IMG/VR virus record: IMGVR_UViG_3300049489_000501
Span: 1-42,185 of that record
Reading direction: 5' to 3' (one strand)
From: a virus
Length of the DNA stretch: 42,185 bases
The notes beneath the pieces are model-generated. The model had not been told where the DNA came from. It ran no database searches and was given only the letters and a program-made list of their open reading frames with translations. Both the position numbers and the translations under genes were made by a program. Of the stretch, positions 1 to 42,185 are shown one piece after another; positions within the stretch are counted from its first letter, which is position 1; every line of letters begins with the position of its first letter.

Positions 1-127
1 TTTAAATACTCAAGCGTTTCCTCATCTGTGAGACCTGCTCGTTTTGGATCACCTGCAAAAAGCTCAGCGACTCCAAGCTTTGAACGTGCTGCCTGAATCT
101 CTTCATCTGTTGCGAGCATTCGATCAA
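1..127. repeat. Terminal direct repeat, copy 1 (circular contig overlap)
   Basis: Bases 1-127 are identical to 42059-42185. Both copies lie inside the same open reading frame, which continues in phase through the junction. This shows that the contig closes on itself, giving a unique length of 42,058 bp. A repeat of exactly 127 bases is what a de Bruijn assembler leaves at k=127, so it is probably an assembly overlap and not the physical terminal repeat of the virion DNA. The true packaging ends (cos, pac/headful or direct terminal repeat) cannot be read from it. Confidence 0.96.
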
Positions 128-3100
128 AGACCTCTGTAATCTCAGGAGTCATCTCAACATTAAGATTCTTAACTCTCTGATAAATAGAAATGAGCCATTG
201 CTTAAATGTTGCAAACGCTTTTTTCAAAGACTCAGACGGCGCTTTACCCTCCATAAGGTAAGCCTCAAAAGCCCTTGCGATTTTCTCATGCTGATCTGTC
301 TGGACTTCGCTGCGAGTTTTAACTCCGACGAAATCAAGCATTTTCTGATAATCATTTTTTATTGAGTCAGGAGCATTCTTCGCCTCTGCCAAATCTGCCA
401 TAACTTCAAAAAAGAAATGCGCAGATTCATGCAAGAATGTTGACTCGTCTTTTGTCTTAAATAAATCGATATTAAACTGACGGTTATTTCCGAACCTGAT
501 TCGGCCACGAGTTTCTTGATAAAGCTCAAAGCCTTGGTTAAGTGCAGCGTCTTTAAGTTCTGGCGTTACGTCTAGGGAATGGACCTTCTGATCATCGACC
601 TCAGTCTCGCCAACCTTAACGCCGAATTTTTTAAACAACTTCTCGGCAGACTTGATCAGGATGTTGTCGTAAAAACCTTTCATCCCTTCGCCGCCGACTT
701 TGAGATCTGCGTTTTCAAGAATGTGAGTCGAGTAGTTTTTGTATTTATCTGACTTAAATTCAGGCTTAAGAATCTTGTCCGCAGCCTCTTTGCCTATGTA
801 ATCAGACAAATCTTCTTTTGTTTCAACCCATCTATCAATTACAGATGAACCACCTTTGTCAGTTGCCGTAAGATAATATCCAGTTGTCCCTCCGGTAGGA
901 TGAGGGCTCTTGGAGTTTACAAGATCAGTTACAACAATTCGGTCAATCTGTTTACTTAAATCAAACCGCTCAGCCTGTTGTTCGCCAGTCGTCCATGCGA
1001 CTCTTTCATAACCGCCTTCAGCTGCCATGCGCATGATTCTCTTAAGAGCAAACTCATGCCATGTTTTTTTGAATGGAGCATCTGGGACTGCGCCTGATCC
1101 CTGCTCATTTGCGGCAGGCTCAACAAGCTGATCGTACCTAGACCTTTCCTCATCTGTGAGTTTTGCAAAATACGTCGGCCCATACTTATCAGTCATTTCT
1201 TTTCTAAAATTTTCAAAAGCATTTTGTGCTGGACTATCTGATCGATACCCTTTTTTCCTACCAGCTTGATGCCAGTCGGACTGGATCTCTTCGACAAATA
1301 AAACTTTCTTCCCATCTGCATCGACTCGGTCATTTAACCGAACGTGGGCTAAGATATTTTTTTCTTCGAAGTGGGATGATTTGTAAGTATCCGTTCGCTT
1401 GTCATCCTTTGTTTTTTGAAGTTGAGACTCAATCTCAGCAACAGCCTCCTCAAAAGTTTTAAAGTAAACTTTTTGGCCAGCTTGTTTTCCGGTATAAAAA
1501 CCCTCACCCTCAGTGTTGGTATTGTAAATCACAAGATTTGATCCATCGAAAGTATCACGTCGCTTGTAAACAGTTTCCTTAGGAAATGGAAACAGCATTG
1601 AATTATATTTTTTAATCAGGCCGTTTATCTTATCTGCGACCTCTTGCTTATCTGTATTTAGATCATCAGGTTTGAGATCAGATCTGTATGTCGTTGCAAG
1701 AATTTTATCCAAAAGCTCATTGATTGCCTTTGGCTTCATTTCTGGAAATTCTTTTTTAAGATATTTCGCAGTATCTTTTTTCTCTTTTATAAACTCTGGA
1801 CTTTCCTCAACCTCTGTTTTCGAAGCTCTCTTAAAAGATGATCTCTCTGACTTTTCCCAAGTACTCTGATCTTTATAAGAATCATCAAGAATATTTCCTT
1901 GAATTTCCTTCGGAGGCATCGTGAGCAGAACCTCTCGATAATTCTCACCGCCTGGCAAGGTGTATTTTGAGTATTGAGTTTGCCGACCGCCGCGAGATCT
2001 CATCAAAGAAATTTCTGTCTCTGCCCCGTCCTCAGATGACCAACCAGATGAAACCTCCTGTCCAGTCGCCTGATCTAAAACGGAATACTCACCACTATCG
2101 TCTGGCCCAGTAACTATCAAATCGCGCTGATCCCCTCCCTTAGTCACCTCAACCACATTCAAACTATTGGCTCGAATAAAATCCAACAATTCTTGTTTAT
2201 CAATCTTTGTCTTGTCTTTAATAAATTCGTTAAGGCCAAGCCATTTAACCTCATCCTCTTTAAGTTCTTTCATCATGGCTTTAACTTGGTTCACATCTGT
2301 AGACTTACCTTGAACTTTTTCTAAAACCATCTTTTCAAACTTAGAATAAAATCCAAGATCAGAAACCTGAGGGCCGCTTTGAAAAAACTGACTCTCTTTA
2401 CCTACAACATACTGCATGTAGGTCTTGCCGTTTCTTTGGACTGGCCTGAACCCATACGACCGCAAAGCATTCATGCCCTCTTTAAAATTATTACCAAATG
2501 AATTCTCGCTAAACACCACAAGGGGCGCTTTATTATCCCTTGCCATATCAATAGCAATATCGATCAAGGCATTCGTGTCAGATGTTAATTCTGGATTGTA
2601 ATTAAAATTGTTTACCTCTAAGACGCCGACGCCCTCAGATCCTTTAGATACGCGCATATTCATCGTCGTCTTTCCATCCTGAGATGTGAAATCAACAGAT
2701 CTATCCTCGCGCTTTGATGGGCTAAAAAACTCTTGAAGTGACTGATTATACATTGTCTGAGGATCGACAACAGGATCAACCGTTTCATCCTGAAGTGTGT
2801 TTATCTTAAGACCGTACTTATTAAAGAGATCAAGAGGCATCTGCCCCGACTTCATCCCTTGCATTGCAAAGAACTTCTCATAAAGTAATGCCTGAGCCTT
2901 CGCTGCCTTTGGAGCAAACCCATTCTCCTTTAACTGTTGCTCAATGTTTTTACCGACCTCTCGCGCCGATGATTCAACGGTGTCAACCTCTTCGTTTGTC
3001 TTGCCCTCTTTGGCTTTATTGTACTCCTCTTCGATCTGGCGTTTTGTTTCCGCCTCAGACTCACGAGCCTCTCGCATGGTCATTTCTTCAGGATTAAACT

Positions 3101-4655
3101 TAACGTCATCCTTAAGGCCCTGATAGTATTCTGTGCCTGCGACTTTCTCAGCCATTACAGCCGTTGAAACTTCAATGTCAGATCCAGATTCAACCGCCTT
3201 ATTATATTCTTTCGAAATACCAAGCTCTATTGCGGCCTGCTCGGGAGTCATATTCTTTGACTGAAAGTATGAAGTAAACCCCTCTTGATTAATATAGACC
3301 TTTTCAACAGGTCCATCCTTCGTTACCTTTTCAACAAACTCACGGTATTTTTCTGGCAGTCTTTGTTTAAGCTTTGAGTTTTCAGCACTCTCACCAATGG
3401 CCTGATAAAGCTCTTGATTTGTTTTTGCCTGTCTAATCTGACTCTGCTTTGCAAGCCCTGCCTGAATACCAACAGGAGACACAAGACCAACGCCTGTAAA
3501 TCCCCCGACAAGCCCTGCATTTATGGCCCTTTCAAATGATCCCTTCATCGCATCTTTGTTCACGCCTGTTGCATAATCTGCAAAGTCCTGCGCAAAAGAA
3601 GTCGCGGCCTCTTCATTTCCTTCAGCTAAGAAAGAATAACTCAAAGTTTTTCCGACGTTCAACATAACCTCTTTCGAAGTCTGTTTACCGAATTCTTTCG
3701 TTAAAGCTTTTTCCCAAGTCTTTAAAATCCCCATGGTCCCAAGTGATTCAAACGCTGCCTCGAACGTCCCCTTAAGAGATGCCGATGACGATGCCTGCTC
3801 AACGCTCACTCCCGGCTTATCAACATTCTCAGCGAATGATTCACTCGCCGTCGATAATCCTGCAGCGCCAAGACCTAAAGCTCCATATCCTGTCGATGCC
3901 GCCGCCAATATTCCAAGCGTACTCGGTGAACTTGCAATGACATTTAAAGCAATTAACTGGCCAGCCTGAGACATATCACCGCGCTTTAACGAGTCCCATG
4001 TTGACTGATTTAACATCGGTGCCTGAGCCCTTAGATCAGCTGCCTTTTGATCAAGGCCCTTAACAAACTCATTCTCTCGAAAAAACTTTGTTGATTCTGC
4101 AACATCTTTATTTGAAGGGAGGGCAAAATTAATCTCGTCCTCTGTGAGCCCCATCATTTCAAGTCTGCCTTGCTGCATTTGATTACTCATTACCGCAAGA
4201 TAACTCGGAGACTTAGCAAGCGCAGATCCAACCCCTATCGCGCTGGCCTTAAATCCAGACAATGCCTGAGACCAAAATCCATGCTCTTTGGTTTTCTTTT
4301 CAAGCTTTATAAGCTCATCAAGATCGTCCTTTGCGACTGTCAAATTATCAGGATCAGCCGTAAACTCAGAGGTCAAAGGCGCGACAACAGATGCCTCGCC
4401 AAGTTTTCCCTTTAACTGATAAGCCTGTCTCTGTTTTTCGATTACATCATAATTCTCTTCGACAAACTTAGACTTAGATCCAAGCTGTTCAGCGATACTC
4501 AATACCTTCGCATGCTGATCTGGATTTTTCTCAGACGCTATTTCAGACGCAGCAAACTGGGCCTGTTGCTCAAAGCTATCAGCCGCAGTCTCATAAGGAT
4601 TGTCGGTCTTGCCAAATTGTTCATCATAAACTTTTTCATACGGATTATCGCTCAT
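1..4655 (-). CDS. Giant polyvalent internal virion protein, N-terminal 1,551 residues (joins 38791-42058)
   Basis: This is the N-terminal part of a 2,640-aa protein whose gene crosses the contig ends. The start ATG is at 4655, overlapping the end of the upstream gp15-like gene by 11 nt. Visible in order: an acidic N-terminus; a hydrophobic Ala/Gly-rich stretch near residues 230-260; Glu/Lys-rich coiled coil near 500-560; a segment with EEIQSDWH (residues 1122-1129) followed by WTTGEQQAERFDLSKQ (about 1215-1230), typical of phage polyvalent proteins; and a zincin motif HESAH (1409-1413) with a downstream FEAYL glutamate (E1464) as likely third zinc ligand, matching the polyvalent-protein metallopeptidase pattern. 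By position after the gp14- and gp15-like genes it takes the T7 gp16 role: a protein packaged in the capsid and ejected into the host with the DNA. Protease activity is inferred from the motif only. Confidence 0.85.
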   Translation of the reverse strand, partial: MSDNPYEKVYDEQFGKTDNPYETAADSFEQQAQFAASEIASEKNPDQHAKVLSIAEQLGSKSKFVEENYDVIEKQRQAYQLKGKLGEASVVAPLTSEFTADPDNLTVAKDDLDELIKLEKKTKEHGFWSQALSGFKASAIGVGSALAKSPSYLAVMSNQMQQGRLEMMGLTEDEINFALPSNKDVAESTKFFRENEFVKGLDQKAADLRAQAPMLNQSTWDSLKRGDMSQAGQLIALNVIASSPSTLGILAAASTGYGALGLGAAGLSTASESFAENVDKPGVSVEQASSSASLKGTFEAAFESLGTMGILKTWEKALTKEFGKQTSKEVMLNVGKTLSYSFLAEGNEEAATSFAQDFADYATGVNKDAMKGSFERAINAGLVGGFTGVGLVSPVGIQAGLAKQSQIRQAKTNQELYQAIGESAENSKLKQRLPEKYREFVEKVTKDGPVEKVYINQEGFTSYFQSKNMTPEQAAIELGISKEYNKAVESGSDIEVSTAVMAEKVAGTEYYQGLKDDVKFNPEEMTMREARESEAETKRQIEEEYNKAKEGKTNEEVDTVESSAREVGKNIEQQLKENGFAPKAAKAQALLYEKFFAMQGMKSGQMPLDLFNKYGLKINTLQDETVDPVVDPQTMYNQSLQEFFSPSKREDRSVDFTSQDGKTTMNMRVSKGSEGVGVLEVNNFNYNPELTSDTNALIDIAIDMARDNKAPLVVFSENSFGNNFKEGMNALRSYGFRPVQRNGKTYMQYVVGKESQFFQSGPQVSDLGFYSKFEKMVLEKVQGKSTDVNQVKAMMKELKEDEVKWLGLNEFIKDKTKIDKQELLDFIRANSLNVVEVTKGGDQRDLIVTGPDDSGEYSVLDQATGQEVSSGWSSEDGAETEISLMRSRGGRQTQYSKYTLPGGENYREVLLTMPPKEIQGNILDDSYKDQSTWEKSERSSFKRASKTEVEESPEFIKEKKDTAKYLKKEFPEMKPKAINELLDKILATTYRSDLKPDDLNTDKQEVADKINGLIKKYNSMLFPFPKETVYKRRDTFDGSNLVIYNTNTEGEGFYTGKQAGQKVYFKTFEEAVAEIESQLQKTKDDKRTDTYKSSHFEEKNILAHVRLNDRVDADGKKVLFVEEIQSDWHQAGRKKGYRSDSPAQNAFENFRKEMTDKYGPTYFAKLTDEERSRYDQLVEPAANEQGSGAVPDAPFKKTWHEFALKRIMRMAAEGGYERVAWTTGEQQAERFDLSKQIDRIVVTDLVNSKSPHPTGGTTGYYLTATDKGGSSVIDRWVETKEDLSDYIGKEAADKILKPEFKSDKYKNYSTHILENADLKVGGEGMKGFYDNILIKSAEKLFKKFGVKVGETEVDDQKVHSLDVTPELKDAALNQGFELYQETRGRIRFGNNRQFNIDLFKTKDESTFLHESAHFFFEVMADLAEAKNAPDSIKNDYQKMLDFVGVKTRSEVQTDQHEKIARAFEAYLMEGKAPSESLKKAFATFKQWLISIYQRVKNLNVEMTPEITEVFDRMLATDEEIQAARSKLGVAELFAGDPKRAGLTDEETLEYL

Positions 4656-6297
4656 TTGCATTTGCCTTCATTATAAATAAATCCAAGATGTTTTTTTCAG
4701 TCGCAGGCTTACCTTTTTTATTTAAGACCTCAATGATCTGAAGTCTGTCACTCTCTGGTATAGTTTCTTGATCAATTAAAAACCTTGGCTTTTTTGTATC
4801 CCACAAAAATCCCTTTGAAGTTACAACCTCAAGAGTTTGTTGTTTTGCCAGGTCACGAATTTCAGAGTTTGTAAGATTGCCGCCTTTTTTCTTTTTCGCC
4901 TCAAGTACAACCTCGTCGAGTCTGTTCTTAAACTTTGAATAATCCTCAACGTCTTTGGTATCAAACCCAGCCTCTTTATAAACATTCTCAACGACCTGAG
5001 CATCAGAGTAAATACCATCAAGCTCTTTACCTGCAGAGTCTTTACCCTCTTTAATATTCTTTTGATAAGTTCGAAGTTTCTCGAAGTGATCTTTTGAAAG
5101 GTTCGGCATTTCTTGTAAGAGATCATGGTTTGCAAATTTTTGACGAGTCTCTGGATTTGCTGCCATTTGTTGCAGCTTATAATATAAAACCCCATCGTCT
5201 CGCATAGGATTTCGTTCTCTGTATTTATCGAGCATCTCTTTGTATTGAGGTTTAAGAGACGTGATGGCCTTGGTTAGCTCAGGAGGATAGTCCCCTGTTT
5301 TATCAAAAACCTTCGCCGCATACTCAACAATGTCCTGTTGCCTTTGATTCTCAGCTGCCTCTCTCTGTCCATAGGCTTTGGCAATCCTCGCCTCTGTTGC
5401 CTCTCTAAGCTTTGGACTTTCAATCTTTGCTGCCTGAGAATAGGCCTGAGCCTCAGACATTCCAGACCTCATGAACTGATCAACAGACCTTTGAGAAGCA
5501 CCCCTCAATGATCCGATCTCAAGTTCTTTTTCGACCTGCTCAATGTTACCGCCAGTTATGTCCGGCTTAACCTTTGCGAAGTATGCCTCTGCTCCAAGGT
5601 CATCCCCATTTGCTATCATTCTTGAGATAACATCTGAGTGCGTTTGAGACCGTGCAGACTCAAGTTGGTATTTTAAAGTTTCAGGAGGCAGACCATTTCT
5701 ATCTGCAAACTCTTTGATTTTAGTTTCTTGATTATAAAGTGACTGCGCTACAGCCTCAGGATCTTGGTAATTAACAACGGCCTTTTCGCGCTCCGATTTC
5801 ATGTACGAGGTAAAGGTATCTTGCTCGTATTTTTCAATTTCATTTGCCACATGACGAGAGACTTGTCTGTTTAACTGAGCCTCTCTTTGCAAAGCCTTTT
5901 GAGAGAACATGGCCTTTTGATTAGGGTTTGACAGACGATTTAAGATTTCGTCGCGCTTTTTGTTAAACTCTTCTCTTGCAAGCTTTGGAGTTTCAAAAGC
6001 ATCTTTCCCTTTTTTAAAGGCAAGTCCCACGCCTTTCTTACCGCCTTGACCATCGTCCTCACCTTGCGAGTACATAAGCTGCGTTTCAAAGTCGTTCATT
6101 TCCTTTTCGACTTCCATAACAGCCAAAGAGTCGGCGCGTTCTTTCACATTCTCAGCAAGACCTACCGCCGCGCTCGTGAGTCTACTTAATCCTTGGCCGC
6201 CGCCAAATGCCTCAACATCTTGTTTTTCTGTTACTCTAATATTAGGATTAACCTCGGCCTGCGTTTGAGCCTGGCCGTATCTTTGAACCGTTGGCAT
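4645..6297 (-). CDS. Internal virion protein (T7 gp15-like position), 550 aa
   Basis: A long, highly charged, almost wholly helical protein with no membrane segment: Glu/Lys/Gln-rich coiled-coil stretches cover most of residues 60-540. It lies between the gp14-like core protein and the giant polyvalent protein, the place of T7 gp15, a virion core component ejected into the periplasm. The start ATG at 6297 has a GAGG ribosome-binding site about 6 nt upstream and follows the previous stop by 3 nt; its 3' end overlaps the start of the giant gene by 11 nt, suggesting translational coupling. I recognise no enzymatic motif. The assignment rests on gene order and composition, not on visible sequence identity. 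Confidence 0.72.
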   Translation of the reverse strand: MPTVQRYGQAQTQAEVNPNIRVTEKQDVEAFGGGQGLSRLTSAAVGLAENVKERADSLAVMEVEKEMNDFETQLMYSQGEDDGQGGKKGVGLAFKKGKDAFETPKLAREEFNKKRDEILNRLSNPNQKAMFSQKALQREAQLNRQVSRHVANEIEKYEQDTFTSYMKSEREKAVVNYQDPEAVAQSLYNQETKIKEFADRNGLPPETLKYQLESARSQTHSDVISRMIANGDDLGAEAYFAKVKPDITGGNIEQVEKELEIGSLRGASQRSVDQFMRSGMSEAQAYSQAAKIESPKLREATEARIAKAYGQREAAENQRQQDIVEYAAKVFDKTGDYPPELTKAITSLKPQYKEMLDKYRERNPMRDDGVLYYKLQQMAANPETRQKFANHDLLQEMPNLSKDHFEKLRTYQKNIKEGKDSAGKELDGIYSDAQVVENVYKEAGFDTKDVEDYSKFKNRLDEVVLEAKKKKGGNLTNSEIRDLAKQQTLEVVTSKGFLWDTKKPRFLIDQETIPESDRLQIIEVLNKKGKPATEKNILDLFIMKANANER

Positions 6298-16492: not shown

Positions 16493-16840
16493 TTATCTCC
16501 TAACTAAAGTAATTATATTTATACTAACGCCAGTGCCGCCAGTAACAGACGGCCTTATGTACCTTGTGATTTCCATTACCTGCTCAATCTTTGCCGAAGT
16601 CAACGCGATGTTGTTACCTTGAGGATCTGTTAATAAAGCCCAGTTCGTCCCATCGTTTGAGCCTTGAATATTCACAGTCGCGCCGCCGAATGTGCCTGTC
16701 GCTTGAATCGATCTATCTGCCCACCCAGTCATCTCAAGAGGTTGGCCAGTGTCGTTCGTTGATAAACCAGACCACGTCACGACGCTCGCTCGATCTCTCC
16801 ATGTAACCAAAGTCTCAACCGAGTAATTAACAACAGCCAT
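16493..16840 (-). CDS. Small beta-sandwich virion protein, 115 aa
   Basis: A Thr/Gly/Val-rich sequence with the blocks WADRSIQATGTFGGATVNIQ, GSNDGTNWALLTD and ITRYIRPSVTGG, typical of small beta-sandwich decoration or neck proteins with a 'GSNDG--W--L' turn. Its ATG overlaps the portal stop by one base (TAATG). Likely a virion accessory protein. No closer identification can be made from the sequence alone. Confidence 0.6.
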   Translation of the reverse strand: MAVVNYSVETLVTWRDRASVVTWSGLSTNDTGQPLEMTGWADRSIQATGTFGGATVNIQGSNDGTNWALLTDPQGNNIALTSAKIEQVMEITRYIRPSVTGGTGVSINIITLVRR

Positions 16841-18567
16841 TAGTTAATACCTGCATTCGCAAGACCTAACATCGCACCTAAAGCACTGTCCTCGCCAATC
16901 GGAGTCTGACCTAGATCCTTCGCCGTCGCAGCTGCAGCTTGTGTCATCTGCATTTGCTGAGCTTGTTTCTGAGCCTGAGCCCTTTGACCTCTTATCTCTG
17001 CAACCTCGTCATCAGTTCGAACAATCGAAGGCGGCAAAGAAATCGTGTCAGCATAAACATCTATTATTTGATCTGAGTTTATCTTATCCAATATGCCAGG
17101 ATCAGCCGCAGCTACCTGAGATACAAATCCAGTGAATCTCTCAATCGATGAGATACCAAGTAATTTCTGAGCCTGAGCCATGACAGAAATGTACTCAACC
17201 TTTAGATCCATGCCTTGAATTTCATCAGGAGGAGGGGGTAATAAACCTTGCCTCATGTGAATATCAAAAACAATATCTGTCATCGGATCGAGCAAGTCCT
17301 GATTTAATTGCTCAAGTACTGGACCTAGAGCGAGCAATTTCTCTTCGTGTCTTTCCTCGATCTCACGCGCAGTAATCTGGCGTCGATCAGAGTTTGCCAG
17401 CATTAAAAACAGATCCTCATAAAACGCTCGCTGAATTCTGTTTCTGATCTGATCCTGCTTCATTTCCATCTCTTGAATTCTAAAGTTAATCTCATGAGAT
17501 GGTCTGAAACCTTGCTGCCCTGATACCGTATCAACGTATGTAATATCGCCAGGCAATATGCTGGCAGTTGAATTCTTAAGTGATGTAGGACCTGTCATCG
17601 GAGGTCTAACCATTTTATCAACGGCCTCCATGACTCTTCTCTCTCCATGCTGAAGTTGTTTAATATCCCCCAAGGCATCCATACCTGGACAGCTTGTGCC
17701 GTAAACATCCTCACCTGTCGTCTCCCATCTAGGGCATAAGACAGGAAAATAATCATAGCCGCCAGCCTCTAGCATCCTGTCATCATAGACAGAATCAAGA
17801 CCGCTATTCGTGCCTGACTCATAGTAATAAGAGAGAAACTTTTTAAACTTAGAAAATGGATTGTTCGGATTATAATCCTTGTTCGGCATAATGATGTGAG
17901 TAACATCGATCCATGCCTGATACTGTCCTTGATCATATAAGTTACGGACGTGTGTTGAGAAATTATCCCAAAGATACTTACCTGACTTAGTGTCGCGTTT
18001 ACCGAATTGCTCTACAAGCTGCGCGACTGTCATCCTGAATTCACGCATGAAGGTATTGATTCTTCCGTTCGGCGATTTTGCGATTGAGTATGAGCCTATA
18101 GGAAAGCTCTTTGAATGAATAACTTCGCCAGTAAAATCCTCTTCAATACTAATAGGTGCAGTCCCAAAAACTCCAAGATCACCGTACATGATAGGCAGAA
18201 TGTTATATAGGTTAGATTTAAGATAAGAGGTCGTCATGATCTGTTGAACTTGATCGAGCCATCTTTTTACCGATCCAAATTCTGCAAGGTCTGGATCTGG
18301 CGTGGTGAGACGAAACCACGGTCTTGCAGGTGAAGTGATCCCAGCCATCATTCCAGACCTGAGAGTCCTTGCCGCAAGTGTGGCCGTTGAGTCGATGATC
18401 TTTTGGTTTTTCTTCTCGCCCCTATTCGCATCAGATAAGTTAAACCTGGCACGTCTTGGTAATATGTGATCAGAAATGTCTCGCCAATGAGAAATGAAAG
18501 ATGCCCTCTCACTCTCAAGTTGGTTTTTCATAATGTCGAAATGGTGCCGCTTTGATTTGTAATCCAT
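16840..18567 (-). CDS. Portal (head-to-tail connecting) protein, 575 aa
   Basis: The N-terminus has the helical ESERASFISHWRDISDHILP followed by RRARF, then ARTLRSGMMAGITSPARPWF. A central region has PFSKFKKFLSYYYESG-type strands, QLQHGERRVMEAVDKMVRPP and DQIRNRIQRAFYEDLFLML. These are hallmarks of the podoviral head-tail connector family. The C-terminus is Gln/Ala-rich. Its 575 aa fits the family. One-base TAATG overlaps at both ends tie it to its neighbours. Role: dodecameric portal through which the terminase packages DNA. Confidence 0.92.
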   Translation of the reverse strand: MDYKSKRHHFDIMKNQLESERASFISHWRDISDHILPRRARFNLSDANRGEKKNQKIIDSTATLAARTLRSGMMAGITSPARPWFRLTTPDPDLAEFGSVKRWLDQVQQIMTTSYLKSNLYNILPIMYGDLGVFGTAPISIEEDFTGEVIHSKSFPIGSYSIAKSPNGRINTFMREFRMTVAQLVEQFGKRDTKSGKYLWDNFSTHVRNLYDQGQYQAWIDVTHIIMPNKDYNPNNPFSKFKKFLSYYYESGTNSGLDSVYDDRMLEAGGYDYFPVLCPRWETTGEDVYGTSCPGMDALGDIKQLQHGERRVMEAVDKMVRPPMTGPTSLKNSTASILPGDITYVDTVSGQQGFRPSHEINFRIQEMEMKQDQIRNRIQRAFYEDLFLMLANSDRRQITAREIEERHEEKLLALGPVLEQLNQDLLDPMTDIVFDIHMRQGLLPPPPDEIQGMDLKVEYISVMAQAQKLLGISSIERFTGFVSQVAAADPGILDKINSDQIIDVYADTISLPPSIVRTDDEVAEIRGQRAQAQKQAQQMQMTQAAAATAKDLGQTPIGEDSALGAMLGLANAGIN

Positions 18568-22408: not shown

Positions 22409-24622
22409 CTAAATATTTTTTCGCCAAATTTTATATGATTTTCTCTGCCTATCTTTAGACACAACTTGCTCATACCCCAGTGCCTTTAAAGATCTCGCGA
22501 TAGACTTTGATGCCTTCATATCAAGTCTTGAGGGATCACCATTTAAACAGTCAATCCATACCTCAGCAGTCGTGAAACTCTCTTTCCTGCCCTCCCAAGG
22601 TTTATTCGGATTACCCCTCTCAAGCCATTCAGCAATGATCTCCTCATAGGGATCAGCCTCTCTACGCGCCTCTTGTTCATCCTTTGCCTGCTCAGGCACA
22701 TCGTACCAAGTCTCTCCATTAAGATAAGCCCGATAAGCCTCAGCAAATAACTGATCCCTATTCTCTTTAATGTACTCAGTATCGCAGACCGTAACCTTAA
22801 TGGGCCAAAACCTGCGAGCCCCTGTCTCATCCTGAAGGTACTTATCTTTGTTCGTTGTACCCACAAAGACGCAAGTTCTCGGGGCCTCAATTGGCTCACG
22901 TCCATACGGCGGCCTGAAGTAATCAACAGCGCACGAGAGTTTTTTCTTAATAAGCGTGTTATCTGATTTTCGAAACTGATCAAGCTCGCCAAACTCGACG
23001 ATCATCTTTCCTAATAACCCATGCTCAAAGTCTTTTGAATCAAGGTTACTCTGTGCCTCGGTAAAGTACTTACCCCCTAAGATCTGTAGCGACGTTGATT
23101 TAAACGTACCTTGCGAGCCCTCAAGAATAACCATGGTATCAACCTTACAGCCTGGCTCCATGATCCTCGCAGCAATTGATATAAAAAAGTTTCGCCCTAT
23201 CGCAAGCGAGTAATCGCTGCCCTCGGCCCCCATGGCTCTTATAAAAAACTCTGAGATCCTTGGACTTCCATCCCATTTAAGAGATCTCATCCAGTCCTGA
23301 ACTTCGTTTCGTCTGTTTAAATACGCAGCCTCTCTAATGCCATCAATGACCGTAGACTTTGGGATCTTGGTAAGCTCATACGCAGACTGAAGGCGAGTCA
23401 TAACTTGAATATCTAATAAGTCAGACCATATCCTTCGCGGCCCATTCCAGGTCGTGTAAATTTTCTGAGTAAACTCCTCAAAGAATATCTGCCCCTTAAA
23501 CTCAGGCATATTGTAAATAATCTTTGCCACATTAAACGCATTTAAAATAATCTTTCCATTTGATGAGGACTTAAGGCCGAGGTTTATATAGGTTAAGTGA
23601 AGGTTATTTGAAACCTGGACCTCGTCTGGATTGTCTTGAGGTTTATCCTGAGTGCTGGGAGTTTCTTTATCCATTACCTCAACAAGCTCAGGCTTAAGGC
23701 ATGTCTTAACAAGAGGCTTTGCCCAGGCAACAAACGAGTCATGAGTCATCCCTTCAGCAAGCGCATCGGCTGCGTCCCATCCCCCATCTCTATCTGTCAT
23801 GATAACCTTTACCTCTTGGCAGATCTCAATCAGGATTGATGAGAGTCTTGCCATGCAGGTATCTCCGGCCTCATCAGCGTCGGGCCATAGGATAACCTTT
23901 CGGCCCCTTAATACAGTCCAGTCAGCCTTTGATACAGACTGAGCCCCAGACGGCCAGGACGTTGTTATATAGGCGCTCGTGATCTTTGCCGCAGCGTCGG
24001 CAGCCTTCTCACCCTCGGCTATTAGGATGGGTTTATCTGAGTTTTTAAAGATCACATCCAGGTTATAAATAGGCCTTGGATCTGGCCACATCCTATTAAC
24101 CCAAAGGCCAGAGGATGAATAAGACAAAGGTCTGAATTCTTTGTATGGCTTACCGTCTTTATCTTTCAGGTCATACCTAAGCACATAAAATAAAGGATCA
24201 CCTTGACCGTCTCTGTAGCACCATGTATAGGTTGGCGCAGATCCTAATAGGATTTGTTGTGGGGGGCTGGCGTTCGTCGGTGGTTTGATGATAGCTGGCC
24301 TTTCTTTTTTGACCACCGGATAGTTATGTTTCGGGGTTTTAATCTCACCCAAAAACCTGTCTGATAATTCCTTTAAAGCCTGTCCGTTGTTTATATTTTT
24401 AATCTTGGAATAAAGAGAGACAATGTCAGATCCTTTTTCCCCAGATGCAAAATCTGCCCAGACTCCTGTCCTTAAATTAAATGAAAACGACTGGCCCTTA
24501 CCTCCTGAGATCGTCGAGGCCCTGTACTCTGTGCCCCTGACTTCACCGCCAGGGCATATCTCAAATAGAATAGAATCTTGATAAGGCTTTAATGCCTCAA
24601 CCTTTGATTTAAAATCCATCAT
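22409..24622 (-). CDS. Primase-helicase with Toprim and VirE-type ATPase domains, 737 aa
   Basis: Likely replication initiator/helicase. An N-terminal primase-like region (about residues 20-95) has FSFNLRTGVWADFASGEKGSDI. A Toprim fold follows with IAEGEKAADAA (201-211) and WPDADEAG (246-253). The C-terminal half carries a Walker A EGSQGTFKST (501-510) and Walker B region MIVEFGELDQF (540-550), as in virulence-associated E / superfamily-3-like phage helicases, with TCVFVGTTNKDKYLQD and GARRFWPI following, typical of the family. No DNA polymerase is encoded, so host polymerase would copy DNA unwound and primed by this protein. It is the last gene of the early operon. Confidence 0.85.
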   Translation of the reverse strand: MMDFKSKVEALKPYQDSILFEICPGGEVRGTEYRASTISGGKGQSFSFNLRTGVWADFASGEKGSDIVSLYSKIKNINNGQALKELSDRFLGEIKTPKHNYPVVKKERPAIIKPPTNASPPQQILLGSAPTYTWCYRDGQGDPLFYVLRYDLKDKDGKPYKEFRPLSYSSSGLWVNRMWPDPRPIYNLDVIFKNSDKPILIAEGEKAADAAAKITSAYITTSWPSGAQSVSKADWTVLRGRKVILWPDADEAGDTCMARLSSILIEICQEVKVIMTDRDGGWDAADALAEGMTHDSFVAWAKPLVKTCLKPELVEVMDKETPSTQDKPQDNPDEVQVSNNLHLTYINLGLKSSSNGKIILNAFNVAKIIYNMPEFKGQIFFEEFTQKIYTTWNGPRRIWSDLLDIQVMTRLQSAYELTKIPKSTVIDGIREAAYLNRRNEVQDWMRSLKWDGSPRISEFFIRAMGAEGSDYSLAIGRNFFISIAARIMEPGCKVDTMVILEGSQGTFKSTSLQILGGKYFTEAQSNLDSKDFEHGLLGKMIVEFGELDQFRKSDNTLIKKKLSCAVDYFRPPYGREPIEAPRTCVFVGTTNKDKYLQDETGARRFWPIKVTVCDTEYIKENRDQLFAEAYRAYLNGETWYDVPEQAKDEQEARREADPYEEIIAEWLERGNPNKPWEGRKESFTTAEVWIDCLNGDPSRLDMKASKSIARSLKALGYEQVVSKDRQRKSYKIWRKNI

Positions 24623-27492: not shown

Positions 27493-28986
27493 TTAGATTT
27501 GCTGTGCGACAATTCTTGCCTTAACGTAGAGATCAAAGCAAGTGAAAAACATACACGGCACCATGTTTAAAAAGCCGTACTCCATGCCCCTATAAATGCA
27601 CAAAATGATTATGAATACGCTCACAAAACAAGAATACTTTAAGAGTTTCATAGCTCTTTCATAGACCTTTGTCTTGACTGCGACTCCTGTAGACTGCCAA
27701 GGCGTGACAGATTTTGTAAGATATTCAATAAGTGCAAAGAGGTGCGCATGGTAAGAAAGAATTCTCGACATTGGCACATACCATCCCCATCTGTTGATGG
27801 ACCAGATTGCCATTACGACAGTCCCAAATACAAAGCTCGGCACCGTATAAATAAGACTCCAAAAAAACATAGCCTCCGGTTTAAAAAACAAAAGCGCGAG
27901 ACTAGGAATGAAACCAGCAATGAGCATAATCCCAGTCGTGATATAATAGAACATGCCCGAGAGATAACAGAGTCTCTGCATGAGAGTGAGATTGTTAACC
28001 CAGAATTCTTTAGAGAAAAACAAAGAGATTGAACCAAGCGCCCAGCGATGTTGCTGCAGAAAAAAAGCAGGCATCGTATCTGGACAGATCCCTTTTGCAA
28101 GGCATGCAGGTATGTACTTTAATTTCCATCCATCAACCGTACAGCGAAACCCAGTTCGAACATCCTCAGAATATGGGATTAAAGCTGTACCACCATGAGG
28201 CTCCAAGGCAGTCCGGCGATAAAGAGCATTCGTCCCCACGCAAATCGCCGCATTAAAATGGCAGCGGCTAACCTGTATTAAGCGATAAAATAATTCTTGC
28301 ACATAGGCCGCGCCCTTACCAACCCATGTCCTATGGTCATCTAATTCGAAATACTGAGGCGTCTGAACGATAGCTATCGTTTCATCATGCAACATCCAAG
28401 GCACCGTGTGATTAAAGAAATTATAATCAGGACAGAAATCGGCATCAAAGATTGCAATAAACTCACCGCTTGTTTTTGAAAATGCGTATCTTAAATTGCC
28501 TGACTTTTTATCCTGGCCTGGATTATCTCGCCTTAAGTATTTAACTCTGCATTTAAAATTCTCAGCTGCCCAGAATGCATCTGACTTATGAGCGCCGTCC
28601 TTTGAGTCATCAAGAATATTCACTGTACAGTTTCGGCCATAGTATTCTGCAAGCTCACAGATAGATGCAAGCGCACGTCTCACCACAGTTATATTCTCAC
28701 CACATACGCAGTAAAAAATATCTATCGAAGGCCTGGCATTAAGGTAAGTAATCACATGTTGATGGTGCTTAACCCAATTAAAGTCTTTCGAAGCTGATCC
28801 AATAAAAAACCCCAAGAGCAAGTAAAAGGATACTAAACCTGCAAATGGGGCAAATATAAAAAAAATAGGATCAGAAAAAGAAAATAAGAACAAGCCAATA
28901 ATCAACGCGCTCAAGGTGATGGAGGATAGCGAATAAATTAATGGCCTGTTAGTTTTTGAATACTTATAAATGTCCGAGATAGTCAC
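27493..28986 (-). CDS. Membrane-bound family 2 glycosyltransferase (cellulose-synthase-like), 497 aa
   Basis: Two N-terminal membrane helices (about residues 15-62), a cytosolic GT-A domain and four or more C-terminal helices (about 340-400 and 455-490). All four signatures of processive GT2 enzymes are present: ILDDS (D126, D127), DAD (181-183), SED (273-275) and QQHRW (311-315). It should therefore be an active sugar-nucleotide transferase at the inner membrane, building or modifying a surface polysaccharide. The start is GTG 28986, 3 nt after the outer-membrane-like gene, with which it forms a pair. A full-length processive GT is unusual in a 42-kb podovirus and suggests acquisition from a bacterium. 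Confidence 0.88.
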   Translation of the reverse strand: MTISDIYKYSKTNRPLIYSLSSITLSALIIGLFLFSFSDPIFFIFAPFAGLVSFYLLLGFFIGSASKDFNWVKHHQHVITYLNARPSIDIFYCVCGENITVVRRALASICELAEYYGRNCTVNILDDSKDGAHKSDAFWAAENFKCRVKYLRRDNPGQDKKSGNLRYAFSKTSGEFIAIFDADFCPDYNFFNHTVPWMLHDETIAIVQTPQYFELDDHRTWVGKGAAYVQELFYRLIQVSRCHFNAAICVGTNALYRRTALEPHGGTALIPYSEDVRTGFRCTVDGWKLKYIPACLAKGICPDTMPAFFLQQHRWALGSISLFFSKEFWVNNLTLMQRLCYLSGMFYYITTGIMLIAGFIPSLALLFFKPEAMFFWSLIYTVPSFVFGTVVMAIWSINRWGWYVPMSRILSYHAHLFALIEYLTKSVTPWQSTGVAVKTKVYERAMKLLKYSCFVSVFIIILCIYRGMEYGFLNMVPCMFFTCFDLYVKARIVAQQI

Positions 28987-32665: not shown

Positions 32666-33103
32666 ATGAAAAAAATCATCTTTGTAGTTTTAACCATGTC
32701 TTTATTATCAGCCTGCCAACCCCCATCAGGAGGAGGATCTAATTCAGGCGGCGGTACAGCTGCGGCACCAACAGTGAGCGCGAACTGCCAAGGTAAACTT
32801 AATAGAGCGTGGGTTAATGAGAACACTAACCTTGCTTATGAGTTCGGATCTAACTGCATGGGAAAGATCCCATCTTGCGAGGCAAGCTTTGAATATCAGA
32901 TCCAAGAATCCGATTCATCTGGCGGCACCATTTTAATTTATGTATCTGCCTCGACTCCATATAACAACCTCTGCCCTGCACCTGGCACAGGCACGACTTG
33001 TACCTATGACTTTGATACAGACAGAGGGGTAACAAGAGGCATGTTCGTCAGATGCGACGGCGGCCAAGTTGTTTATTATAGATCATCTTACGGCGTTGAA
33101 TAG
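32666..33103 (+). CDS. Outer-surface lipoprotein, 145 aa (accessory gene)
   Basis: Lipoprotein signal MKKIIFVVLTMSLLSAC with lipobox LSAC (C17), then a low-complexity Gly/Ser linker, then a mature domain of about 105 residues with six to seven Cys (NCQGK, NCMG, SCEA, LCPAP, TCTYDF, RCDGG) that could form disulphides. No known domain. It is on the plus strand between the early promoter and the endolysin, with which it overlaps 3'-to-3' by 21 nt. A GATAAT lies just upstream; the RBS is weak. A lone lipoprotein in such a place is the typical context of a superinfection-exclusion or lysogenic-conversion 'moron'. Confidence 0.75.
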   Translation: MKKIIFVVLTMSLLSACQPPSGGGSNSGGGTAAAPTVSANCQGKLNRAWVNENTNLAYEFGSNCMGKIPSCEASFEYQIQESDSSGGTILIYVSASTPYNNLCPAPGTGTTCTYDFDTDRGVTRGMFVRCDGGQVVYYRSSYGVE

Positions 33104-33826
33104 CCTCTCTCGAAACTTACTCATTGGTAAAGAGAGGCTCCCACCGGGGTCCACTTTCCTCCACTTACCTATTCCTTTAACGCCAGCCACCTCATGGTGA
33201 CCGAGCACATAATCAAAGCTAAACACCTCAGGATTGTTCGACTTAAGCCACAGCAAGAGCTTAACTAAAGACTCCTCTTGTGCCTCAGTATATTTTTTGT
33301 AAATACCCTTTGGACATTCATGAGCATCCGTGACAACTCTTGTTTCCTCTTTCGGATACTTAACCCCAAACCATGAAGTATAATTATCATCCAGCTTGCC
33401 AGCACAAGAAACCTCAATGCCTACCAAGTAACGACTCACCCCAGATCCAAGTCCAGGCCATTTACTCTCACCTGCATGATAACCCCAACGATCAAGGGGA
33501 AACGATTGATAAACAACCCCTGTTGGTCCGATCACAAAAAACGTGTATCCGTTTTTAATCCCACCCATCACAGTATTCTCAGCATTTTTTTCTGTCTGAT
33601 CACGGCCTGAGGTATAGTGAACAATCGCGCCCTCAGGATAACCTTTGCGGTATTTACCTTGTGTCGGCATCTCTGCTCCCTTCAAGATAACTGCATCAGG
33701 ATACCAGAGTTTTTTCTGTCCAACGGCATCCATGTTCGGACGAGGAGGCTCGGCCTTTGGAGGCACGATCATAGGCGCTGCGCTAACAAATAAAGACTTA
33801 ACCCATTCAATAAATTTCTGAAACAT
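33083..33826 (-). CDS. N-acetylmuramoyl-L-alanine amidase endolysin, 247 aa
   Basis: Amidase_2/PGRP-type zinc amidase: IVHYTSG (H70), a mid-domain GYHAGES (H117) and SRYLVGIEVSC, then VLGHHEVAG (H210/H211) and KVDPGG (D226) as zinc ligands/catalytic residues; length is normal. The N-terminus has a hydrophobic, aromatic FIEWVKSLFVSAAPMIVPP (residues 5-23), which could be a weak signal-arrest-release or membrane-association segment. RBS GAGGG. It cleaves peptidoglycan for lysis and is the last gene of the late block, separated from the lysis cassette by the plus-strand cassette. Confidence 0.9.
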   Translation of the reverse strand: MFQKFIEWVKSLFVSAAPMIVPPKAEPPRPNMDAVGQKKLWYPDAVILKGAEMPTQGKYRKGYPEGAIVHYTSGRDQTEKNAENTVMGGIKNGYTFFVIGPTGVVYQSFPLDRWGYHAGESKWPGLGSGVSRYLVGIEVSCAGKLDDNYTSWFGVKYPKEETRVVTDAHECPKGIYKKYTEAQEESLVKLLLWLKSNNPEVFSFDYVLGHHEVAGVKGIGKWRKVDPGGSLSLPMSKFRERLFNAVR

Positions 33827-33896: not shown

Positions 33897-34112
33897 TTGG
33901 CTAAAGTAGAGATTATTATTGAGGACTTGCCAGATGGAAAGGTCAAGATAACATCAAATCCAACTATGGAGACGATGATCAAAATGGAAATATCTGGATC
34001 AAGAGAACTAACCTCAGCGCATGGATACGCGTATGCCTGCTTAAACGAGATTAGAAAACTCTCAAAGTCCTTAGATCCTACAAATAAATTGATCATCCCA
34101 AGACTTAAGTGA
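33897..34112 (+). CDS. Small conserved-type phage protein, 71 aa
   Basis: Product reads MAKVEIIIEDLPDGKVKITS, with METMIKMEISG and LTSAHGYAYACLNEIRKLSK. The 'IEDLPDGKVKI-S-P--E-M-KM-ISG--LTSAHGYA' pattern belongs to small phage proteins of unknown function that I have seen repeatedly in environmental phages. Start is TTG 33897 with GAGGGGG upstream. First gene of a plus-strand cassette; the promoter would lie in 33827-33896, which has a CTCAA/TTGAG inverted repeat (33853-33857/33865-33869). Confidence 0.6.
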   Translation: MAKVEIIIEDLPDGKVKITSNPTMETMIKMEISGSRELTSAHGYAYACLNEIRKLSKSLDPTNKLIIPRLK

Positions 34113-34303
34113 CAGTCGAAACTCAAATATCAGAATGCGGTACAATTATCCTGATCATCCTTAAACAAGAGGATGAGGATACAATAAAGATCGAAGTTGA
34201 TATTGATGAGTGCAGAGAACTAATGCTTATGCTCAACGAAACCATAATCAAAGCTGGGGTGATGAGTGAGTTCTTCGCCGGAAAATTCAAATCCAAAAAC
34301 TAA
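34109..34303 (+). CDS. Small plus-strand protein, 64 aa
   Basis: Product MTVETQISECGTIILIILKQ, then EDEDTIKIEVDIDECRELML and a helical C-terminus. Start GTG 34109 overlaps the previous stop (GTGA), so it is coupled. Related in style to the 71-aa protein (acidic, beta then helix), perhaps a diverged copy. Its 3' end overlaps the CsrA-like gene by 38 nt. Function unknown. Confidence 0.55.
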   Translation: MTVETQISECGTIILIILKQEDEDTIKIEVDIDECRELMLMLNETIIKAGVMSEFFAGKFKSKN

Positions 34304-34454
34304 GAAAGATTTCGGTAAGCTTAGAGTGACTGTTAAGCAAGGCCAGCCGATTTATATTGGCGAGGATATTGTTATCGCATTTAAGTTCGACTCAAGATCT
34401 CAATTGCAATTACTCGTTATCGCACCAAAGGAAATCAAAGTTCGCAGGGGATAA
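34266..34454 (+). CDS. CsrA/RsmA-like RNA-binding regulator, 62 aa
   Basis: Residues 19-62 align without gaps to the whole beta-barrel core of CsrA (E. coli residues 2-45). Identical or equivalent positions include T22 (T5), G26 (G9), I31-G32 (I14-G15), Q46 (Q29), V51 (V34), APKE 53-56 (36-39), V59 (V42) and R61 (R44), the key RNA-binding arginine. L4 and R6 of CsrA are replaced by Val, and the C-terminal helix is missing. A 17-residue polar extension precedes it. Start GTG 34266, with no good RBS, so the exact start is uncertain. Likely role: binding GGA-containing leaders of host or phage mRNAs, or competing with host CsrA. Confidence 0.72.
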   Translation: MSSSPENSNPKTKKDFGKLRVTVKQGQPIYIGEDIVIAFKFDSRSQLQLLVIAPKEIKVRRG

Positions 34455-34459
34455 ATAAG

Positions 34460-34720
34460 TTAGTTGCATTTATTCTGGTTATTGATAACGTACTCTTTCA
34501 CTTCAGCAAAATCTTTTTGGCTTAAACAAAAATATCCGTTCATCTCTTTGACTGGGATCGTTCGATCAAACTGAATAATGAAATTCTTTTTATCGATGAC
34601 TTTATAAACCCTGCCTTCATCAAGCTGAGTATCTAGTACGGTAGGCTCAACGTCTGGAAACTCAGAACACGCGGCAAAGATAAGCGCCGTAATAATGATG
34701 CTACTTTTTAGATATTCCAT
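34460..34720 (-). CDS. Small lipoprotein, candidate outer-membrane spanin, 86 aa
   Basis: Signal peptide MEYLKSSIIITALIFAAC with lipid-acceptor C18 (sequence FAAC, a weaker lipobox), then a 68-residue mature part. It overlaps the end of the preceding 91-aa gene by 20 nt and lies in a cassette with two other membrane/helical genes. Position after a membrane/coiled-coil gene in a lysis cassette suggests an o-spanin, though it is less Pro-rich than usual Rz1 proteins; it could be another periplasmic lipoprotein. Confidence 0.55.
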   Translation of the reverse strand: MEYLKSSIIITALIFAACSEFPDVEPTVLDTQLDEGRVYKVIDKKNFIIQFDRTIPVKEMNGYFCLSQKDFAEVKEYVINNQNKCN

Positions 34721-38790: not shown

Positions 38791-41700
38791 TTATTGATCT
38801 CCTGCCTTACCAGTTATGAGACCTCTCGTAAAATCAACAGGTCCAGATGGTTTAGCTTTTCCAGATTCAACATCCATCAAGTATCCTGCAGGTCGTCCCA
38901 ATGGGCCAGTCGGAAGTCCAGTCATAATGCCTATCATTTGCAAAGAGTCCTTGACGGTTTTCTTTTTTAACTCACCCCTGTCCGAGGCATCTTTGTAAAT
39001 CTGTGCCGGAGTACTTACCGCAGACTCGACAATCGAAATCACTGGCGACAAAGACAATCTGTCATCAGCAACATTTTTAGTAAATGCTTTATTGTATGCC
39101 GAAACCCCAGCCTGTCCAACATAAGGCACCATTGCCATCGAAGTCTTAAACTGTGATCCAAAGAATATCGTCATTGCATCGTCAAGATACTTATCATCGT
39201 CATCGTCATCCCAGTTATTACTCATGGCCCGAACGATAACTTCAGACAAAACCGCAGGCAGCATGAACGCGGTAAGGTATAAATAAAACCCCCTGCCCAT
39301 GCCTTTCCTTAATCCTACTTCTCTTTGAATTCTCTGGATCTCAGATCCGTTAAGATTTGCCAGCATGTTAAAATAAGAAACGAACTGTTTAAACAGCATG
39401 CCTGTCGCAGTCCCAGTCTCAAACCTTGAAACATCCTCTGGGTTATTCGTGCCTTGCGTAGTTCTAATCGCCTCATCTGCAAACCGTACAGCCTCAATCT
39501 CAGTCATCCCTTTTTCAATTGACTGATCATAAGCGCCTTTCCAGACAATCGTATTAACCATGTTCTGCGCATGCATCTGTAAAAAGTAAGTATGCTTTTG
39601 AGTAAAGTCCTTCGCCTTTTCAAACGTCGAGGGATTAAGCAAGATCTCACTAACAGCCTGATGAAGTTCAAAGATGTTCGATCCTTGAGTCGATTTCATC
39701 CAAGCTGATTTTTCCATAATGGCCTCAGTCGTGCCTTTATTATTTGTTACATAATCCCATAGTCCATTTCGAATATACTTAGGATTTACTTTTGACATAG
39801 CGACAACCAAGCCAGTCACCTGCTGCAAGGTATTCGTTACGTTACCCATCATGATTTGAGTCGCAACATTTCGTCTTAATACCCTTGCCACGGCGTCGGT
39901 CGCTCGACCTATGCCATCCTCAGACGGCAAGACTGTCTTTTGCTGAGCGGCCCTTTGTAGCCACGGCACAAGAATATCCGAGCCTGCCATTGAGTCCACA
40001 TTCGCAAGTGCTGCGCGAAACCCCTTATCAACGACAATCTTTGAAACTTCTTTAACCCTTGGCTCAATAAACGTAAACCTTAAAACCCCATCAATATGAG
40101 ATCCAAGTAAACCCATATCAAGAGATAACGGCTGAGTATAATTCTCAACCCTTGATTTCGTGAACCCTCTGCCCGTCGTCGGAAACTGAAACGAGTTATT
40201 GTTATTCTCAAACTCTTCTCGCTCTTGCCTAATCCTGCCGTCCTCAACAGTCAGCACATCAACCTTTGCAGGAATGTATCCGCCTCTGTAATCTCCGAAC
40301 CTTGTCGGGATAGCGTTTGCCGTGATCTCGTTAAAGTAATACCCGAACATCTGTTTATGAGCTTTTTGAGCGCCAGGTTTTAAACCCTCGAGCATATCCC
40401 AAATGCTTTGAGCAAAATCAAAGTCAGCCTTTGTCAGAGTCCCATTCTCTTGAAGTCCATCTAAAAACCGAAACCATTTCTCAGTATTAACCGTGCCATC
40501 TGCATTCTGCTCACCCCAACCTCTACCAAGTAACAACTTCTTTAAGTTCGACTCATTACCTGAGTGCAGAATTGCCATCATTAACTCGGCCTTGTTTTTA
40601 AAGATAAATTTTCCCTCTTCAAAAACGATCTTATCCTGAGTGATGTTTTTCTCGTATCCTCTCAACAAATCAACGTACTGTTTTAAAACTGTATTTTTCT
40701 GCAATCTATAATTCGTCACCGCATCTGAAACAGGTTGCCAAATGTATCTATGAAATGGACCATTGTCTTTAACGTCCATCGCCTTAGTCCAAGCCTCAGC
40801 CCTTACAAGAGATGACTTAAATCCTAAGAGCTTCATCTTTGCCTGGCCCCATTTATCGACCGTTTCTGAATACTGAGACTTAGCCTCTGGGGTAATAGAT
40901 GCAATCTGATTCGTTAACTCTTCTTTAACCTTATCAATGTCCATTCGAACACCGTCGATCTCAATTTCCTTTCGAGACTTTGCAAGATCATAAAGAGCCA
41001 TTACAGCATTTCTCATCTCAACAAAAGTGTCGTAAGTGACAGACTGATAATCTCCCTTATTCGCCGTCGCTTGATCGACTAAGTTCTTTACAACAGAGTA
41101 TCCCTCTGGATCATAGGCCTGCATTGATTTTAAATACTCATCAGCCGTCTTGCCTGCTCGCATGATACCAAAGTCTGCAAGGATAGCCTTTGCCGCATTA
41201 ACAAGATCAACGTCCCTAGACTTTGCCATGTCCTCGTCGTTACGTTTAAAGATCTTTTTAAAATCATTGATGGATTTTTTAACATCCTCTTGAGCGTCCA
41301 TCGCAGCGACATATAGCTCAAAGTTTAGATATTCTTTTCTCTTCGCCTCAAATGCTTTAAAGAAATCACCCTGCTTAAATGCCTTAGCCGCCTCAATTGA
41401 AAATCTTTTCTCAGCCGCTCTATGAACCGCCGGACGAACTTCTCGAACACTTGTCGATGCAATTAAATTAATCGCTTGCTGTTTAACTTCTTTCTGAGAT
41501 GGCATCCTTCGAATCAGCTTTGATCCGATATTCTTAACCATATCAGGATCGTTCTTCATAAGATGCTTTAACTCTAATCGCTTAAGCTTTCTTGCGTTCT
41601 CATTATGAAGTGCACGAATGGCCGTCTCTGATAACTCAGGACTCTCCAAAAGTTCAGGATAGGTTTTTTTAATCTCTGTCGCCACACGAGACTCAACAAA

Positions 41701-42185
41701 ACTCTCAATGCCTCTTTGATATGGAGCTATTGCCTGCAGCATAGCCTGGCCGTTTTCAAATCCTAAAATACTTGCTACCACATCAGGATGTTGGCCGCCG
41801 TCTAAGATCGTCGAGCCTCTTGGGATCGTATTCTTAAATACAGAATACTGATCATTAACCACGTTCTTAGATAACTTCATCTCGCCTGTAATTAAATCAA
41901 TCGCTTTAAACTCAGGCATTTCTTTTGCCTTCGCCATTTCAGCGTCATAGATTTCTTTGTACTTAGCTTGATAAGCTTTATCTTTTTTCCTGATCAAATC
42001 TTTCATGACCTGAGCTTGAAGGTCTGCCTCGGCATCAATACGAGCAAAGGCCTGAGCGTTTAAATACTCAAGCGTTTCCTCATCTGTGAGACCTGCTCGT
42101 TTTGGATCACCTGCAAAAAGCTCAGCGACTCCAAGCTTTGAACGTGCTGCCTGAATCTCTTCATCTGTTGCGAGCATTCGATCAA
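38791..42185 (-). CDS. Giant polyvalent internal virion protein, C-terminal part (continues from 1-4655)
   Basis: C-terminal part of the 2,640-aa protein; it has no start of its own, because the frame enters from base 1 across the circular junction. It begins with a long charged helical region and holds a segment on virion-associated helices. Near residue 2470 there is a hydrophobic helix (FYLYLTAFMLPAVLSEVIV), then a run of six Asp (WDDDDDD, about residue 2499). The end has TGLPTGPLGRPAGYLMDVESG and a terminal FTRGLITGKAGD, the style of ending seen in large polyvalent protein associated domain 38. The stop TAA is at 38791-38793. One gene thus takes about 19% of the genome, twice the length of T7 gp16 (about 1,300 aa). 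Function as an ejected internal virion/DNA-delivery protein is inferred from gene order and family. Confidence 0.85.
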   Translation of the reverse strand, partial: DRMLATDEEIQAARSKLGVAELFAGDPKRAGLTDEETLEYLNAQAFARIDAEADLQAQVMKDLIRKKDKAYQAKYKEIYDAEMAKAKEMPEFKAIDLITGEMKLSKNVVNDQYSVFKNTIPRGSTILDGGQHPDVVASILGFENGQAMLQAIAPYQRGIESFVESRVATEIKKTYPELLESPELSETAIRALHNENARKLKRLELKHLMKNDPDMVKNIGSKLIRRMPSQKEVKQQAINLIASTSVREVRPAVHRAAEKRFSIEAAKAFKQGDFFKAFEAKRKEYLNFELYVAAMDAQEDVKKSINDFKKIFKRNDEDMAKSRDVDLVNAAKAILADFGIMRAGKTADEYLKSMQAYDPEGYSVVKNLVDQATANKGDYQSVTYDTFVEMRNAVMALYDLAKSRKEIEIDGVRMDIDKVKEELTNQIASITPEAKSQYSETVDKWGQAKMKLLGFKSSLVRAEAWTKAMDVKDNGPFHRYIWQPVSDAVTNYRLQKNTVLKQYVDLLRGYEKNITQDKIVFEEGKFIFKNKAELMMAILHSGNESNLKKLLLGRGWGEQNADGTVNTEKWFRFLDGLQENGTLTKADFDFAQSIWDMLEGLKPGAQKAHKQMFGYYFNEITANAIPTRFGDYRGGYIPAKVDVLTVEDGRIRQEREEFENNNNSFQFPTTGRGFTKSRVENYTQPLSLDMGLLGSHIDGVLRFTFIEPRVKEVSKIVVDKGFRAALANVDSMAGSDILVPWLQRAAQQKTVLPSEDGIGRATDAVARVLRRNVATQIMMGNVTNTLQQVTGLVVAMSKVNPKYIRNGLWDYVTNNKGTTEAIMEKSAWMKSTQGSNIFELHQAVSEILLNPSTFEKAKDFTQKHTYFLQMHAQNMVNTIVWKGAYDQSIEKGMTEIEAVRFADEAIRTTQGTNNPEDVSRFETGTATGMLFKQFVSYFNMLANLNGSEIQRIQREVGLRKGMGRGFYLYLTAFMLPAVLSEVIVRAMSNNWDDDDDDKYLDDAMTIFFGSQFKTSMAMVPYVGQAGVSAYNKAFTKNVADDRLSLSPVISIVESAVSTPAQIYKDASDRGELKKKTVKDSLQMIGIMTGLPTGPLGRPAGYLMDVESGKAKPSGPVDFTRGLITGKAGDQ
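42059..42185. repeat. Terminal direct repeat, copy 2 (circular contig overlap)
   Basis: Exact second copy of bases 1-127. Joining base 42058 to base 1 keeps the giant minus-strand gene in frame: 4655 + 3268 = 7923 nt, which is 2641 codons including the stop. That is independent support for circular closure. Confidence 0.96.

Follow-up and report, generated by a model that had tools for sequence, protein, structure and literature searches.

The window, as we call the whole 42,185-nucleotide stretch of viral DNA analysed here, encodes a 62-residue protein that is a genuine, divergent member of the CsrA family. We read it, with about an even chance of being right, as a divergent CsrA-fold RNA binder with altered contacts that is accessory in one epsilon15/BPP-1-like lineage. 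Phages with CsrA genes have been reported before, and phage CsrA homologues are not rare; what appears new from the alignments is a form without the tail helix and R6, kept in the same unusual shape by a related phage. An earlier note on this DNA had placed an open reading frame at 34266-34454 on the plus strand, and both coordinates and strand were confirmed. The gene was recovered again by a search of the whole record. A Shine-Dalgarno-like stretch, GGGG, lies at 34256-34259, and the GTG start aligns with the ATG of the ortholog in the related record G003. The gene and its parts are as follows.

34266..34454, plus strand: CsrA-like gene, 62 aa, GTG start; PF02599 above cut-off, ortholog in G003 and G009
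34266..34319, plus strand: 18-residue N-terminal tail before beta1, pLDDT 51-64
34320..34448, plus strand: CsrA core, residues 19-61, equal to CsrA positions 2-44 in gap-free HMM and phmmer alignments
34326..34334, plus strand: codons 21-23 (V-T-V), by alignment L4 to V, T5 kept, R6 to V

Family membership, proposed in the earlier note, was supported by the Pfam CsrA profile (PF02599), which matched the 62-aa product significantly at 30.3 bits (E = 4e-7; curated cut-off 27). The ortholog from G003 and G009 scored 34.0 bits, also above the cut-off. The window protein matched PHROG 9500, "CsrA-like regulator", with E = 0.0011. All seven phmmer matches in the PDB were CsrA, RsmA, or RsmE (best E = 0.033), and core identity to these cellular proteins was 23-39% over the aligned part. 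A single-sequence, one-chain AlphaFold2 model reached pLDDT 74.9 and pTM 0.48 and was unchanged after the ortholog was added to the input. Its strands at residues 29-31, 35-41, and 47-52 occupy the places of CsrA beta2-beta4. Beta1 and beta5 were absent from the one-chain model, as expected, because in CsrA both pair with the other subunit (PMC7652899). When this chain was compared with the PDB by Foldseek, the best 15 matches were all CsrA, RsmA, or RsmE; ranks 1-11 had probabilities of 0.99-1.00 with E-values of 0.04-0.1, and the best matches gave TM scores of 0.50-0.54 against CsrA chains for the single-chain model. In predicted structures of viral proteins, the top two matches were phage carbon storage regulators. 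The N-terminal tail, which has no counterpart in cellular CsrA, is probably disordered, as suggested by the low model confidence, and the tails of the window protein and the ortholog have a common K-T..D-F-G-K pattern in the alignment.

We next consider the RNA face, for which the window protein was numbered against CsrA positions by alignment. The gap-free core described in the earlier note held over residues 19-61. The APKE block (residues 53-56), the I31-G32 pair, and R61 (equivalent to R44 and the last residue of the core) are kept, as had been claimed. The claimed replacement of L4 and R6 by valine (V21 and V23) and the loss of the C-terminal helix were likewise verified, supporting an altered RNA face. 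One residue follows R44, so that the chain ends at position 45, and R31 is replaced by Q (CsrA numbering). In the ortholog, which has 63 aa, the chain ends exactly at R44 (R63, the final residue), with V at position 4, L at 6, and K at 7. The helix with E46 and I47 is therefore absent from both proteins, and R44 is common to both despite about half of the core residues differing. Since the change of L4 to V is conservative, what the window protein has truly lost is R6, R31, and the whole chain beyond position 45, with E46, I47, and the helix.

According to the ranking of Mercante 2006 as it is cited in PMC6692469, alanine mutations in E. coli CsrA act, strongest effect first, at R44, V42, L2, I47, V40, L4, R6, and R7. 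Three of these eight positions are kept in the window protein (R44, V42, and L2), three are changed mildly (V40 to I, L4 to V, and R7 to K), and two are lost (R6 and I47). The R6A mutation lowers RNA binding by E. coli and C. jejuni CsrA, and E46 and I47 are also sensitive (PMC6692469). A36-P37 is kept, beta5 is more basic (K-V-R-R), and the net charge is +6 in the window protein and the ortholog versus +1 in E. coli CsrA. In a cellular sample of 42 CsrA domains from one bacterial phylum (that of a single MAG, described below), collected by a search biased to classical sequences, L4 was present in 40/41, R6 in 40/41, and R44 in 41/41. A canonical CsrA regulator was rejected as an identity for the window protein because R6 and the C-terminal helix are absent.

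An exact 127-bp terminal repeat (1-127 and 42059-42185) and a giant internal-protein gene that runs across the join of the ends (3..4661 and 38791..42177, both minus strand) indicate that the window covers the complete genome, about 42 kb long, of a virus. The portal (16840-18567) is 44-48% identical to those of BPP-1, Carin1, and phiV10/epsilon15, and the giant internal protein is 40% identical to that of phage zth2-2; on these two proteins the genome is placed with the epsilon15/BPP-1-like podoviruses. The minus strand carries all of the large genes, and the plus strand carries a three-gene cassette (33897-34454). The other two genes of the cassette and its neighbours are listed here.

33897..34112, plus strand: cassette gene 1, 71 aa, without known family; better conserved than the other two cassette genes, 90% aa identity to G003
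34109..34303, plus strand: cassette gene 2, 64 aa, overlapping genes 1 and 3; no Pfam or PHROG family
33083..33826, minus strand: N-acetylmuramoyl-L-alanine amidase (endolysin), divergent neighbour; PF01510 at 48.6 bits, PHROG amidase/endolysin
34460..34720, minus strand: small exported protein with a lipobox-like AACS, convergent neighbour, identified by sequence; ortholog in G003 at 48-49%

A gap of 5 bases separates the last of these genes from the csrA stop. The earlier note had the cassette running against the lysis genes, where timing would matter. The amidase side of this claim is clear; on the other side the genes are at best a lipoprotein and a weak holin match, and gene position is what would point to a role in lysis timing. 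No promoter-like site turned up when the intergenic stretch ahead of cassette gene 1 was scanned, and promoter-like sites in the cassette region were no more numerous than in shuffles. Elsewhere in the window, a primase-helicase with a VapE-like domain (PF05272, 235 bits) is encoded at 22409-24622 (minus strand). A membrane glycosyltransferase family 2/cellulose-synthase-like protein (PF13632, 67 bits) at 27493-28986 (minus strand), adjoining the RecT gene, is an unusual cargo with a possible role in surface modification.

Relatives were found by a portal-alignment scan of IMG/VR, which gave 80 related loci; 50 whole records were searched for CsrA. The gene was present in 2/50, G003 and G009, a freshwater lineage with a portal 84% identical to that of the window. 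As G003 and G009 are identical over the 3.1-kb stretch compared, they were counted as one lineage. Both carry gene 1, gene 2, and csrA in the same order as the window, so the three-gene plus-strand cassette described earlier is conserved. Between the window and G003, aa identity was 90% for gene 1, 57% for gene 2, and 47-48% for csrA. For csrA, dN was 0.49 and dS about 1.7, giving a rough dN/dS of 0.29 with dS near saturation; the dN/dS of gene 1 was 0.04, and gene 2 showed a strongly synonymous pattern. Homologs of gene 1 at 52-59% were found in G007 and G008 (L108 and L109), both without a CsrA match, and by these alignments gene 1 represents a small, strongly conserved family without a known name. 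In the related phage (L095; 227-988, 1629-2257), a metallophosphoesterase-like gene stands at the amidase position and two HNH-endonuclease-like ORFs directly follow csrA.

The same cassette and truncated form in a related lineage, together with a dN/dS of about 0.3, indicate that csrA is under purifying selection and has not decayed. A neutral moron gene that derives from a captured host csrA and is now decaying would fit the divergence of the protein and the absence of a CsrA match both from 48/50 related IMG/VR records, many of which are fragments, and from six named relatives (zth2-2, ctQRb9, DC33, Ab9, Carin1, and BPP-1). However, the gene is intact, its truncation and cassette order recur in the second lineage, and the ratios for csrA and gene 1 are low. 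The conserved orthologous cassette thus largely refutes decay, which we regard as very improbable. A chance ORF was ruled out because the ortholog has its place in the matching cassette, is 47-48% identical, and differs mostly by synonymous changes. When viral contigs were scanned with the CsrA-like protein alone or the giant internal protein alone, no relatives came up; a scan with the exonuclease gave one distant contig, and the portal alignment alone yielded full-length relatives. Plasmid relatives of the CsrA-like protein appeared only at E > 0.5. From its distribution in these searches, csrA is an accessory gene of one epsilon15/BPP-1-like podovirus lineage, yet one that is retained.

A search for GGA triplets in hairpin loops, suggested in the earlier note, gave no enrichment: the 46 phage gene leaders contained 6, versus 15.8 +/- 3.9 in shuffles. 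This result offers no sign of a classical CsrA regulon among the phage's own genes. On the host side, a genome-contig scan with the portal found one MAG with a related portal (54% identity). CsrA is encoded in 40/46 genomes of that MAG's bacterial phylum, and the csrA of the portal-bearing MAG stands before a gene reading like fliW. These leads bear on a decoy or dominant-negative partner, which would lower host CsrA activity either by exchanging strands with it, so that heterodimers arise in which one RNA face is crippled, or by soaking up Csr small RNAs. Without a C-terminal region, such a partner would evade antagonists like FliW, whose action is close to that part. The loss of R6, the cut C-terminus, and the retained dimer core are consistent with such a partner, as are the CsrA genes of the MAG's phylum and the fliW-like neighbour of csrA in the MAG itself. 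There are also precedents: the plasmid protein RsmQ, which binds GGA/AnGGA sites and rewires its host, heterodimerises with host Rsm proteins (PMC9928087), and CsrA dimers mutated on one face showed that full repression needs bridging of two sites (PMC7652899). Against this partner, the link to the MAG is a portal at 54% identity, and the retained R44 and more basic beta5 are needless for a pure decoy. We consider this explanation unlikely.

The RNA-binder reading is favoured by the Pfam scores of the window protein and its ortholog, the retention of R44, V42, and L2, the fold matches, purifying selection, the charge of +6, and the precedents among phage and plasmid CsrA proteins. Against it stand the loss of R6, E46, and I47, the lack of GGA-hairpin enrichment, and a model of one chain with pLDDT 75. 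The protein most likely forms the interlocked dimer of the CsrA type, whose reshaped beta1/beta5 face would bind RNA of the phage or of the host. During infection it would probably regulate expression post-transcriptionally, with a target choice that may be weaker than or changed from that of host CsrA, and it would be free of control through the C-terminal region.

CsrA homologues of phages and plasmids are suspected to direct host physiology, but tests of them are very few. A naturally occurring CsrA that is cut to R44, has no R6, and is under selection offers a test of the contacts that the fold needs for RNA. The window protein also offers a test of whether phages use an altered CsrA to redirect or block the host Csr system.

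The earlier note's view that phage Csr homologues have seldom been described no longer holds. A 2020 table by Sobrero and Valverde lists 30 csrA-bearing phages (PMC7366521), and our tblastn search with E. coli CsrA matched 91 phage records, of which a few are probably contigs of bacteria deposited as phage. Plaques shrink when the PTXU04 homologue is knocked down (PMC11879866), and the CsrA-like protein of JC1 was detected in purified virions by a single peptide (PMC9144972). Compared with cellular CsrA/RsmA/RsmE (PF02599), the window protein has the same beta-strand core, I-G pair, APKE block, V42, and R44; it differs in the loss of R6, the changes of R31 to Q and L4 to V, the N-terminal tail, and the missing C-terminal helix. 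The classical phage proteins (F116 RsmM-type, PTXU04/Bas95, and VvAW1) are likewise phage-encoded with a CsrA fold, and in Bas95 csrA is near the endolysin gene, as in the window; unlike the window protein, they retain R6 and residues after R44.

A second set comprises the head-module CsrA-like proteins (PHROG 9500 type) of BcepIL02, JC1, PEp14, Itty13, SopranoGao, Parlo, Skulduggery, and the second copy of F116, of which ten were examined. F116 has both a head-module CsrA-like protein and a classical CsrA. In 8/10 the gene order is portal, one or two genes, csrA, and capsid.

L114 5000-5194, L116 1498-1692, L117, L118, L119, L120, L122, and L123: csrA in the order portal ... csrA - capsid
L115 2989-3195 and L121 1492-1704: csrA amid other structural genes

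Like the window protein, these proteins have an aliphatic residue at position 6 (Leu/Ile in 10/10); R44, kept in the window protein, is lost in 5/10, and about 20 residues follow position 44 where the window protein has one. Such proteins in Lessievirus, Pavtokvirus, and F116-type phages may no longer act on RNA, which is the precedent for a CsrA fold recycled in the window as a protein-binding or virion component. The aliphatic position 6, the frequent loss of R44, and the virion peptide of JC1 speak for this role. In contrast, the window gene adjoins amidase and lipoprotein-like genes outside the structural module, R44 is kept, and the protein scores 31.7 bits with the classical CsrA profile versus 6.3 bits with a profile of the ten head-module members. 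Membership in the head-module family was rejected on these scores and on gene position, and a virion or protein-binding role is quite unlikely.

An aliphatic residue replaces R6 in 12/12 phage proteins from two groups (the ten head-module proteins, and the window protein with its ortholog), versus R in 40/41 cellular domains from one phylum, and no paper remarking on the loss of R6 in phage CsrA was found among open-licence papers. Tentatively, phages may have made an "arginine-6-less" CsrA at least twice independently, here in a minimal, R44-ended form that might read a different RNA motif or act as a host-dimer poison escaping C-terminal control.

Closest in sequence to the window protein are the CsrA-like products of two human-gut contigs labelled "Bacteriophage sp." (MT837633 and MT837916), at 40-42% over 43 aa.

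L004 696-995 and L013 5606-5923: gut-contig CsrA-like genes, one adjoining a flagellin gene

Because of this flagellin neighbour, the contigs are probably bacterial chromosome fragments. In their proteins, as in the window protein and its ortholog, position 6 is aliphatic (Leu), position 7 is Lys, and R44 is present; the C-terminus is longer than that of the window protein. Plasmid RsmQ is, like the window protein, a CsrA homologue on a mobile element, and it interacts with the host Csr/Rsm system; RsmQ retains the VHRE/D motif and binds AnGGA (PMC9928087), whereas the window protein has VRRG.
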